Positions 1-54,489 of a stretch of DNA of 64,000 bases are shown in pieces (position 1 is the stretch's first letter; each line of letters starts with the position of its first letter). The translations under genes were made by a program, and so were the position numbers. Source of the DNA: Nitrospinota bacterium (GTDB lineage: Bacteria > Nitrospinota_A > UBA7883 > JACRLM01); assembly GCA_016208975.1 (NCBI GenBank), contig JACQXA010000004.1, positions 993,015-1,057,014 of the forward strand. The letters run 5' to 3'. Under the pieces are notes generated by a model. The model was not told the DNA's origin. It saw nothing but the letters and a program-made list of their open reading frames with translations, and did no database searches.

Positions 1-393
<393 letters not shown>

Positions 394-1704: not shown

Positions 1705-1761
1705 TCGGCGCCTTGGGGCGGAAAAGCCCATGTGAAAGCGCATAAACGGGCAAACGCGGTG

Positions 1762-1910
1762 GTAGTGTCTCAGTTTGAAAGTGCAGGGGAGATTCTTCAC
1801 TTACGCTCAGAATGACAACATAAAAGCCGTTGATAACACTGTCATCCTGGGCGAAGCGCAGGCGAAGTGAAGGATCTGTCTGTTATTTGAGATTCAAACT
1901 GAGGCCCACC
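1762..1910. repeat. 149-bp palindromic interspersed repeat, copy 1
   Basis: Starts GTAGTGTCTCAGTTTGAAA and ends in TTCAAACTGAGGCCCACC, so the ends are imperfect inverted repeats. An inner pair (AGATTCTTCACTT ... AAGTGAAGGATCT, and CTCAGAATGACA ... TGTCATCCTGGG) makes nearly the whole element able to fold as one long hairpin around a central segment near 1823-1845. Nearly identical copies lie at 30294-30443 and 54282-54430. No open reading frame inside is convincing. It sits between the divergent metK and ccmH-like genes. Confidence 0.9.
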
Positions 1911-1933
1911 AACACGGTGGCGGTCATGCCGAC

Positions 1934-30228: not shown

Positions 30229-30293
30229 CCGGACGGGCCAGCCCTCTGCGTTGACATATATTGGCCTTGCATAACAACGTATTACGCAAAACC

Positions 30294-30443
30294 GTAGTGT
30301 CCCAGTTTGAAAGTGCGGGGGAGATTCTTCACTTACGCTCAGAATGACAATATAAAAGCCGTTGATAACATTGTCATCCTGGGCGAAGCGAAAGCGAAGT
30401 GATGGATCTGTCTATTATTCGAGATTCAAACCGAGGCAACACC
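30294..30443. repeat. ~149-bp palindromic interspersed repeat, copy 2
   Basis: Copy of the element at 1762-1910, starting GTAGTGTCCCAGTTTGAAA and ending TTCAAACCGAGGCAACACC. It shows scattered base differences, more than those between copies 1 and 3, so it is the more diverged copy. It lies between the glycosylase gene and ssrA. Confidence 0.88.
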
Positions 30444-30490
30444 CGCAAAACCTGCAAGACGCCGCGCCAACTGTGTTAACATAATCATGC

Positions 30491-30851
30491 GGGGGCGTTC
30501 CGGTTTCGACGGGAATGCCGGGATTTAAGGTCGCGCGCCGTGGAGGTTACAAGCCACGTAAATCCTTGTGACGTATGATAATCGCCAACGATTATCGCTA
30601 CGCTGTCGCCGCCTAACTAAGCGGCTAAGCCGTTCTGCCGTTTGCCTCCCGCAAAACGGACAGGGCGCAATATCGCGGGATAGCCGAAGGGAGTGGCCGA
30701 CCGGCCCAGAAGCGAAACAAAGGTTGGCTGGCGCCGTCAACGCCCGTTTCCGGGCAAACTGACGGGGCGAGACCTTAAAGCGGAAACTACGCGCGTAGAA
30801 GCCTTAGGTCAGGATTTTCGGACAGGGGTTCGACTCCCCTCGCCTCCACCA
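30491..30851 (+). ncRNA. ssrA: Transfer-messenger RNA (tmRNA)
   Basis: Rescues stalled ribosomes. The 361-base RNA has the acceptor stem GGGGGCG pairing with CGCCTCC, a T-arm GGGGTTCGACTCCCC, and an encoded CCA end. The tag reading frame is 30584-30616, ANDYRYAVAA followed by TAA, a normal YAVAA degradation tag of the type seen in deltaproteobacteria. The resume codon is GCC. Its 3' end carries an insertion-site duplication at 31635-31650 and a decayed remnant at 32530-32583. Confidence 0.96.
30836..30851 (+). repeat. attachment-site-like repeat at the ssrA 3' end (attL)
   Basis: CCCCTCGCCTCCACCA, the last 16 bases of ssrA, recurs exactly at 31635-31650. The two copies bracket 799 bases holding higBA, the arrangement left when an element integrates into the 3' end of ssrA. 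No integrase remains between them. Confidence 0.7.
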
Positions 30852-38148: not shown

Positions 38149-38289
38149 ATGACCAATAACTCTCTAAACATCCTTATCCTAGGCTCTGGCGGGCGGGAAC
38201 ATGCGCTGGCGTGGAAAATCGCCCAAAGCCCGGCAGTCGCCAGAATATATTGCGCTCCGGTAAAATATCCGGTTATCGAAATACTTTAA
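38149..38289 (+). pseudogene. purD: Truncated duplicate of the purD 5' end
   Basis: ATG at 38149 opens a 46-codon frame. [20 protein letters not shown] and [17 protein letters not shown] align with the first 37 codons of full-length purD ([37 protein letters not shown]). After CAP the sequence diverges to VKYPVIEIL and a stop. It lacks the catalytic parts of glycinamide ribonucleotide synthetase and cannot be functional. The level of divergence indicates either an old duplication or replacement of the gene by a related allele. Confidence 0.85.
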
Positions 38290-38485: not shown

Positions 38486-39775
38486 ATGACTGATAACTCT
38501 ATTAATGTCCTGGTAATCGGCTCCGGCGGGCGGGAACACGCTTTGGTGTGGAAAATCGCCCAGAGCCCGCTGGTTAAAAAAGTTTACTGCGCGCCGGGCA
38601 ACGCTGGAATGGAAGGGGTGGCAAAACTGGTTCCCATCGGGGCCGACGAGCTGGGGAATCTCCTGCTTTTCGCCGATGAGAACGATATAGACCTGACAGT
38701 TGTGGGCCCGGAGGCTCCGCTGGTGGCGGGGCTTGTGGACGCTTTCGAGAACGCTGGGCTCATGGTTGTGGGCCCGCGAAAAGCGGCGGCCATGCTGGAA
38801 GGCTCCAAAGTGTTCATGAAGGGTGTTCTCACCCGGGCGGGCGTGCCCACGGCCCGGTACGAGGTTCACACAAGCCGCTCCGAAGCCGTGGCGGCGTTAC
38901 AGCGGTTCGGCGCCGCAGTGGTGATAAAGGCCGACGGGCTGGCGGCGGGCAAGGGGGTTGTGGTGGCCAAATCCCGGGACGAGGCGGTAACGGCTATAGA
39001 CGACATGGTGGTGAAAAAGGTGTTCGGCCCCGCTGGCGAGAAGATCATCCTGGAAGAAACCCTGATAGGTGAAGAAGCGTCCATTCTCGCCTTCTGTGAT
39101 GGCAAAAACGTGATAATGATGCCCTCGTCGCAAGACCATAAGAGAATAGGCGACGGCGACACCGGCCCAAACACCGGCGGCATGGGAGCATATTCGCCCG
39201 CCCCGGTGATAACGCCGGAGCTTTCGGACTGGATAGAGAAGAACGTGATGCTCGAGACGCTATCCACCATGGCTGGCGAGGGGAATCCGTACAAGGGCAT
39301 CCTGTACGCGGGCATAATGATAACCGCCGAGGGGCCTAAGGTGCTGGAGTTCAACTGCCGGTTCGGCGACCCGGAATGCCAGCCGCTCATGCGCAGGATG
39401 AAAAGCGACATCGTGCCGGTTCTGTTTTCCATAGCCGAGGGGGATTTGTCCAACACCCAAGTGGAATGGACGGAAGAACCGGCGGTGGGCGTTGTGATGG
39501 CGTCGAAAGGTTATCCCGGCGATTACGAGAAGGGCAAACCCATCTCCGGCCTTGAGGAGGCCAACGGCTCGCCAGGGGCCGTGGTTTTCCACTCCGGCAC
39601 AAAGAAAGGCCCGGCTGGCGAGATCGTCACCAACGGGGGCCGGGTGCTATGCGTAACCGCCACCGGAGTCACGGTGGGCCAGGCTATAAACCGGGCGTAT
39701 GAAGCGGCGGGCAAAATAAAATTCGAAGGGGCTGTTTACAGAAAAGATATAGGACGCCGGGCGCTGGAGCGATGA
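38486..39775 (+). CDS. purD: Phosphoribosylamine-glycine ligase
   Basis: Second step of purine synthesis (GAR synthetase), an ATP-grasp enzyme. From the ATG at 38486 it has 429 residues. Motifs: the N-terminal [30 protein letters not shown], the ATP-grasp segment VIKADGLAAGKGVVVAKSRDEA, LEETLIGEEASILAFCDG, MGAYSPAPV and VLEFNCRFGDPECQPLM. Its last 4 bases overlap the start of a solute-binding-protein gene. No ribosome site is clear. The inverted repeat upstream may regulate it. Confidence 0.97.
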   Translation: MTDNSINVLVIGSGGREHALVWKIAQSPLVKKVYCAPGNAGMEGVAKLVPIGADELGNLLLFADENDIDLTVVGPEAPLVAGLVDAFENAGLMVVGPRKAAAMLEGSKVFMKGVLTRAGVPTARYEVHTSRSEAVAALQRFGAAVVIKADGLAAGKGVVVAKSRDEAVTAIDDMVVKKVFGPAGEKIILEETLIGEEASILAFCDGKNVIMMPSSQDHKRIGDGDTGPNTGGMGAYSPAPVITPELSDWIEKNVMLETLSTMAGEGNPYKGILYAGIMITAEGPKVLEFNCRFGDPECQPLMRRMKSDIVPVLFSIAEGDLSNTQVEWTEEPAVGVVMASKGYPGDYEKGKPISGLEEANGSPGAVVFHSGTKKGPAGEIVTNGGRVLCVTATGVTVGQAINRAYEAAGKIKFEGAVYRKDIGRRALER

Positions 39776-53641: not shown

Positions 53642-54274
53642 ATGCCTGATTTTTCGGAAATAGACATATATCCCGTCACGGGCCGGAGCCTGGCCAAAGG
53701 TTTGGGCGACGAGCAGATAATTTCAGCGCTGGCCCGGGGCGGCGCCAGGATTGTCCAACTGCGCGAGAAGAACCTTTCGGGCCGGGAATTCTACGAACTG
53801 GCCAGCCTTTACCGCCGGGAGACCCGCCGCCACGGCATGTTACTTGTCATAAACGACCGGGTGGACATGGCCCTGGCCGTGGAGGCCGACGGTGTGCATC
53901 TGGGCCGGGAAGACATGCCCATAACGGCGGCGAGGCGGGTGATGGGGCCTAAGGCCATCATAGGCGGGTCATCTCATTCCATTGAAGAGGCTTTGGGGGT
54001 GGAGTCTGCCGGAGCCTCTTATGTCAACCTCGGGCCAATATACCCAACCCCCACCAAGCCCGGCGCCACGGCCATCGGCCTCTCAGCCGTTAAACGGGCG
54101 GCGGCGGGGGCCATCCGTATTCCATTCACGGTCATGGGTGGCGTAACCATGGAAAACATCGGTGAAGTGGTTATGGCTGGGGCGCGGAAGATTGGCGTGG
54201 TATCAGCCATTTTCGGGGCCGAAGATCTGGAAATGGCCACCAAACGGCTCCGGGGGCGCATCCGGGGCTCCTGA
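53642..54274 (+). CDS. thiE: Thiamine-phosphate synthase
   Basis: Couples the thiazole and pyrimidine moieties. The 210-residue TIM-barrel contains YPVTGRSL, ARIVQLREKNLSGREFYELA, LLVINDRVDMALAVEADGVHLGREDMP, GGSSHSIEEALGVESAGASYVNLGPIYPTPTKPGATAIG and TVMGGVTMENI. The ATG at 53642 has AAGG 8 bases upstream. Last of the thi cluster; copy 3 of the interspersed repeat starts 7 bases after the stop. ThiC and ThiD are not seen. Confidence 0.97.
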   Translation: MPDFSEIDIYPVTGRSLAKGLGDEQIISALARGGARIVQLREKNLSGREFYELASLYRRETRRHGMLLVINDRVDMALAVEADGVHLGREDMPITAARRVMGPKAIIGGSSHSIEEALGVESAGASYVNLGPIYPTPTKPGATAIGLSAVKRAAAGAIRIPFTVMGGVTMENIGEVVMAGARKIGVVSAIFGAEDLEMATKRLRGRIRGS

Positions 54275-54281
54275 TAAACCG

Positions 54282-54430
54282 GTAGTGTCTCAGTTTGAAA
54301 GTGCAGGGGAGATTCTTCACTTACGCTCAGAATGACAATATAAAAGCCGTTGATAACATTGTCATCCTGGGCGAAGCGCAGGCGAAGTGAAGGATCTGTC
54401 TGTTATTTGAGATTCAAACTGGGACACCAC
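54282..54430. repeat. 149-bp palindromic interspersed repeat, copy 3
   Basis: Nearly identical to copy 1, starting GTAGTGTCTCAGTTTGAAA; ends TTCAAACTGGGACACCAC, the best-preserved terminal inverted repeat of the three (GTGTCTCAGTTTGAA against TTCAAACTGGGACAC). Lies between thiE and a small membrane-protein gene. Confidence 0.9.
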
Positions 54431-54489
54431 CGATAAATCCTGCGCCGGACGGGTATGTTATATTTAGAATATTCTTTGTGAGTTGAACC

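Follow-up and report, generated by a model that had tools for sequence, protein, structure and literature searches.

The window, a stretch of 64,000 nucleotides (G000:C4:993015-1057014) from a Nitrospinota genome of 2.97 Mb in 4 contigs that is listed as complete (G000), contains three copies of a repeat that is, with near certainty, a true MITE. Taken as a whole, our account, to which we give a probability of about 0.93, is that this is an orphan MITE with IS1-related ends that has been moved in trans and that carries a pair of REP hairpins as passive cargo. A MITE of an IS1-related transposon is ordinary in kind; its interior is informative.

Copies in the window and across the genome

A find_repeats-type comparison, aligned over the whole length of the copies, found the three to be mutual repeats (81-100% over 168 nt) at the sites given in the original prediction, the ends of which were off by at most one base (Table 1). 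Each copy is an element of ~151 bp that runs from GGTAGTGTCYCAGTTTGAA to TTCAAACTGRGACACCACC. The terminal inverted repeats that had been proposed are present, but the word given for them, GTGTCYCAGTTTGAA, was too short, the real repeat being the 19-nt GGTAGTGTCYCAGTTTGAA. The proposal of a single long hairpin holds, in that RNA folding of copy 3 yields such a structure at -62.4 kcal/mol (z = -6.8 versus dinucleotide shuffles). Furthermore, 8-bp duplications flank all three copies, agreeing at 7/8, 8/8 and 7/8 positions. An Rfam scan of the window matched the tmRNA and one tRNA only, and the repeat's identity as a structured RNA family was rejected on that ground. Some 40-48 bp separate copy 2 and its duplication from the downstream tmRNA gene (30491-30851), and the copy lies immediately 5′ of the likely tmRNA promoter. 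The window also contains a 112-nt direct repeat (38149-38260 and 38486-38597; 74% identity, 337 nt apart).

Table 1. Positions in the window of the three MITE copies, their REP hairpins and their flanking duplications
Feature	Position	Strand	Basis
Copy 1, left target-site duplication AACGCGGT	1753..1760		sequence; 7/8 vs 1911-1918 AACACGGT
MITE copy 1, 150 nt, degenerate right end GAGGCCCACC	1761..1910	+	sequence, repeat comparison
Copy 1 REP-L, TGTC tag towards centre	1791..1817	-	sequence, structure
Copy 1 REP-R, TGTC tag towards centre, head-to-head with REP-L	1840..1876	+	sequence, structure
Copy 1, right target-site duplication AACACGGT	1911..1918		sequence
Copy 2, left target-site duplication CGCAAAAC	30285..30292		sequence; 8/8 vs 30444-30451
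MITE copy 2, 151 nt, ~48 bp upstream of tmRNA gene	30293..30443	+	sequence, repeat comparison
Copy 2 REP-L	30323..30349	-	sequence
Copy 2 REP-R	30372..30408	+	sequence
Copy 2, right target-site duplication CGCAAAAC	30444..30451		sequence
Copy 3, left target-site duplication GATAAACC	54273..54280		sequence; 7/8 vs 54432-54439
MITE copy 3, 151 nt	54281..54431	+	sequence, repeat comparison, folding
Copy 3, left terminal inverted repeat GGTAGTGTCTCAGTTTGAA, identical to IS1-related transposon end	54281..54299	+	sequence
Copy 3 REP-L	54311..54337	-	sequence
Copy 3 REP-R	54360..54396	+	sequence
Copy 3, right terminal inverted repeat TTCAAACTGGGACACCACC	54413..54431	-	sequence
Copy 3, right target-site duplication GATAAATC	54432..54439		sequence

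The dozens of genomic copies originally foreseen number about 115. Specifically, a pattern for the core has 117 matches genome-wide at up to 3 mismatches (controls, 0), and a pattern for the end has 214 at up to 2 mismatches (reversed-pattern control, 9). From ~95 stretches around these matches 112 near-full copies were extracted, and the majority sequence of the copies is the 151-nt GGTAGTGTCTCAGTTTGAAAGTACAGGGGAGATTCTTCACTTACGCTCAGAATGACAATATAAAAGCCGTTGATAACATTGTCATCCTGAGCGAAGCGCAAGCGAAGTGAAGGATCTGTCTATTATTTGAGATTCAAACTGGGACACCACC. Clean copies are bounded by the fixed terminal inverted repeats GGTRGTGTCYCAGTTTGAA and TTCAAACTGRGACACCACC; the boundary is in every case the 19-bp end, not the foot of a REP. 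Among the 94 copies with both ends clean, the 8-bp duplication is perfect in 44 and agrees at 7/8 or better in 66, and when left flanks were set against shuffled right flanks a mean of 0.32 pairs reached 7/8 or better (maximum 2). It is this difference, 66/94 observed against 0.3 expected, that identifies the repeat as a true MITE; in a collection without a congener of the window genome, the evidence for insertion is the flanking duplications, not empty sites. The copies are thus neither confined to the window nor lacking a shared boundary, and the examination of their flanks that the original prediction proposed yielded both fixed ends and a target-site duplication. The middle of the duplicated target sites is rich in A and T.

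The copies are intergenic, overlap with predicted genes never exceeding 75 nt in the 112 examined (genes were predicted by codon usage, with a model trained on the window). A gene lies to either side of 105 copies, and these neighbours are divergent in 39 cases, co-directional in 58 and convergent in 8. Among the 78 full-length copies there is no identical pair; the median distance is 5 positions to the consensus and 9 between copies, a degree of divergence that points to a burst no longer fresh; the decay of target duplications showed no link with copy divergence as a signal of age (Spearman p = 0.77). All 112 copies have one arrangement, which argues that the whole unit was amplified and not that REPs were inserted repeatedly. 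One copy, in L030, holds a 1.2-kb insertion (L030:1580-2775; G000:C3 ~141279-142474), which was rejected as an autonomous element because it is an IS3-type element, with two ORFs and ends TGACCTTCCCCC, that landed inside the MITE; AAGCGCAAGCGAAGT, present on both of its sides, is longer than usual IS3 duplications.

The REP pair in the interior

Two TGTC-tagged REP hairpins make up the interior of the MITE, head to head, with the tags facing each other. In the consensus, positions 31-57 (reversed) and 80-116 form the hairpins TGTC-ATTCT…AGAAT and TGTC-ATCCT…AGGAT; REP-L has 9 stem positions, including two G·A mismatches, and a 4-nt loop, REP-R is longer, and the tails are CTC/CTG. Such tags were found 244 times in the genome, with ~234 expected from the MITEs, and nearly all lie inside MITEs. 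At G000:C3:34327-34616, outside any MITE, TGTC-REP hairpins are repeated in tandem every 33 bp.

Matched by verbal description and not by consensus letters, this interior resembles the CGTC REP superfamily. In the sections cited here, the survey of Di Nocera, De Gregorio and Rocco (2013; PMC3733652) describes CGTC REPs as intergenic, often with CGTC changed to TGTC, with a short stem of 8-9 bp that opens with A-T and T-A pairs, a loop of 4-5 nt, a CCA-like tail and a tendency to occur as head-to-head dimers, and reports them without a dedicated transposase, without RAYT association and mostly without associated repeats. The same survey (section 7) reports REP dimers inside other palindromes, which it terms targets, and for two species the part cited saw no REP-free copies of the REP-bearing palindromes, which fits joint movement of REP and palindrome. 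The pair in the MITE shares with CGTC REPs the TGTC tag (a listed variant), the first A-T and T-A pairs, a short mismatched stem, the head-to-head and intergenic placement and the lack of a RAYT, but differs in that nearly all copies in G000 lie between transposon ends that are flanked by target duplications.

IS1-related transposons with the same ends

The search for an autonomous partner used patterns that kept the MITE end and excluded the MITE interior. In G014, a genome of the window genome's class, paired GGTAGTGTCTCAGTTTGAATTG ends lie 2.88 kb apart, and this element (G014:C45:7679-10559) has GGTAGTGTCTCAGTTTGAA at both ends and, between them, genes for an AAA-ATPase and for a transposase of 310 aa. 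With the Pfam model PF03400, DDE_Tnp_IS1, the latter exceeds the cut-off (28.9 bits against 24.1), but it falls short of that of the NCBIfam IS1 model NF033558 (68 bits against 100), and we therefore label it “IS1-related”. D78, D148 and E212 are invariant in an alignment of 16 sequences and, as judged from this conservation, are the predicted catalytic D, D and E.

DDE transposons of this kind, 2.1-6.5 kb long and with the 19-bp ends and 8-bp duplications of the MITE, are common in Alphaproteobacteria and occur in other Nitrospinota. A scan of 84,980 genomes kept 80 loci, mostly from Alphaproteobacteria, together with Nitrospinota, Nitrospira/Nitrospirales and Deltaproteobacteria. Paired ends, nearly all of them GGTAGTGTCTCAGTTTGAA with few mismatches, are present at 73/88 transposase loci (two of the 73, L303 and L341, are one and the same low-quality match), and 66 of these 73 have an 8-bp duplication at 7/8 or better. 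Many more elements carrying MITE-type ends and 8-bp duplications, 0.3-4.3 kb in size, are found in IMG/VR contigs. The MITE and the transposons share the outermost ~19 bp only, with no longer subterminal similarity. In the IS1 family, ends begin with GGT and the target duplication is 8-9 bp, and ends starting with GGT together with an 8-bp duplication were found at the IS1-related loci. The partner thus shares these features and a DDE_Tnp_IS1 match above the Pfam cut-off with that family, but it differs in its single long ORF, a D148-E212 spacing of 63 residues, its length and passenger genes and its NCBIfam score below the cut-off.

These transposons (L344-L420, for example L351, L354, L359, L361, L375 and L397) carry 1.5-5 kb of passenger genes, among them XRE with an M78 peptidase (ImmA/IrrE-like, toxin-antitoxin-like), a P63C domain, a NYN nuclease and a ClpP-like protease; the passenger in G014 is an AAA ATPase with relatives among defence ATPases. 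IS1595, suggested as partner by ends of the form GG…TGTC and a duplication of 8 bp, was rejected, PF12762 being absent from the genomes that carry MITE-type 19-bp ends (G000, G013, G014, G015 and G017). Literature searches on the end sequence and core words returned no relevant paper, and none was found that names the ISMhu11 subgroup.

Neither a single-sequence search nor a profile search detected a transposase of the IS1-related group in G000, so that the MITE there is an orphan. The search for a RAYT or IS transposase with matching ends that the original prediction proposed accordingly yielded an IS1-related DDE transposase in relatives and none of that group in G000 itself. The notion of a non-coding element moved in trans has fared well, given the 19-bp inverted ends, the 8-bp duplications, the copy number and the cognate transposase in relatives. 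We infer that the two 19-bp ends were recognised by an IS1-related DDE transposase acting in trans, the product of a transposon that G000 would have gained horizontally and later lost. This enzyme would have cut the 151-bp element and inserted it between genes at AT-rich sites, leaving 8-bp duplications, while the non-coding REP pair, needing no mover of its own, would have multiplied passively with it. Present mobility is doubtful, as no transposase is left in G000 and no identical pair exists among the 78 full-length copies.

REP pairs within other ends and alternative explanations

It is informative to compare the contents of these ends across genomes. In other Nitrospinota genera (G013, G014, G015 and G017), MITE-type 19-bp ends surround different TGTC-REP pairs: 13 of 16 mini-elements there, 131-141 bp long, contain head-to-head TGTC pairs, and six have duplications at 6/8 or better. 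The mini-elements with such ends in IMG/VR contain no REPs and have the look of simple deletion derivatives; the ends as such therefore do not entail REP cargo. In a genome of another phylum (G028; L441-L460), 10/20 sampled REP loci lie within GAGA[CG]CTTTGCATAA inverted ends, five with a perfect 6-bp duplication, and the same ends hold REP arrays of varying length (128-360 bp). Ends similar to these enclose REP pairs at 3/20 loci of a genome from the window genome's family (G001; L421-L440), and in G019 (L478-L483) the REPs at 5/6 loci lie in an element of 135 bp with [AG]AGCATTTTAA ends and TA on either side, the tags pointing outward. Three types of ends thus enclose TGTC-REP pairs: IS1-related with 8 bp, GAGACCTTTGCATAA with 6 bp, and TAGAGCATTTTAA with TA; the latter two sets form MITE families with TGTC-REP interiors. 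Transposases for GAGACCTTTGCATAA and TAGAGCATTTTAA ends were not found, and a search of IMG/VR for what might move the GAGACCTTTGCATAA ends led to 17 contigs but no clear paired element. Possibly of a fourth type are the inverted repeats GTTGTTGAAAAA / TTTTTCAACAAC, which surround a TGTC-REP pair in G013 (L496; G013:C87:2400-2900). In G032 and G036, REP pairs are present with no recognisable ends, and enclosure is therefore not universal. As far as these sequences indicate, ends and core have separate histories in other genomes. The broader proposal, that TGTC/CGTC-tagged REP pairs spread through bacteria as generic cargo in MITEs of unrelated transposon families, is one to which we would give slightly less than an even chance. 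REPs may have entered these unrelated sets of ends by capture during MITE formation or by insertion into existing MITEs.

The latter route recalls a possible, if rather doubtful, alternative in which the REP pair is an independent mobile element that prefers MITEs or other palindromes as insertion sites, the MITE then spreading the result. The REP dimers inside palindromes called targets in the cited part of the 2013 survey, the arrays of different length within the same ends in G028, the pairs with no recognisable ends in G032 and G036 and the tandem array in G000 would all fit; the one arrangement of the 112 copies in G000, however, speaks for amplification of the whole unit. This alternative concerns the first entry of the REPs, not the spread of the unit, and is compatible with our main explanation. 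Quite different, and very improbable indeed, is movement of a REP/REPIN-type element as single-stranded DNA by a RAYT (a Y1 tyrosine transposase) with the hairpins as its recognition sites, in which case the inverted repeats at the ends would be incidental. The interior does fold into hairpins, and G000 has one Y1_Tnp match (G000:C4:348583). Movement by a RAYT or of the IS200 type leaves no 8-bp target duplication, whereas such duplications are typical of DDE transposition and are seen at the MITE; the clean copies never end at a REP foot; and no TGTC REP lies beside 28/30 Y1_Tnp loci of the phylum, including that of G000 itself (L322), the remaining two being weak (a single intact-looking tag at 45; a poor match). 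A RAYT was rejected as mover on the last of these grounds. The REP-like character originally suggested is thus retained for the interior, but the mover would be a DDE transposase and not a RAYT.

It is also worth considering that the hairpin might be kept for host use, as a terminator, an RNA stability element or a protein binding site, with copy number reflecting selection. Although the hairpin of copy 3 is very stable, the copies are all intergenic and compensatory change occurs in 16 cells against 6.5 in shuffles, we regard this as improbable: divergence is equal at paired and unpaired positions (0.0347 and 0.0360 per site), and selection on the hairpin was rejected because paired sites change no slower; most of the compensatory excess traces to two polymorphic pairs (10/142 and 47/90) and could be shared by descent among related copies; the stem is followed by no T-run; and the copies between convergent genes, where a terminator is expected, are 8 of 105. 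Nothing points to a general host function, although single copies may affect their neighbours.

As an orphan with IS1-related ends, the repeat resembles the known bacterial MITEs (NEMIS/Correia, RUP, Nezha, Chunjie and MITEAba12) in being small, non-coding, intergenic and of high copy number, with inverted ends and target duplications, and probably in having been moved in trans; it differs from them in its IS1-related transposon ends and in an interior made of two REPs head to head, a type of pair also found without such ends. With REPINs and their RAYTs (REPtrons) it shares paired palindromes, high copy number and a position between genes, but no RAYT accompanies the repeats and 8-bp target duplications do. 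CGTC REPs are widespread, and the MITE of G000 bears on the question of their mover, which the 2013 survey left open: here REP pairs appear to have been multiplied ~115-fold by DDE transposition with target duplications, a datable and countable case. If this were general, REPs without a RAYT could spread by riding in MITEs, and the palindromes termed targets of REPs may be carrier ends.
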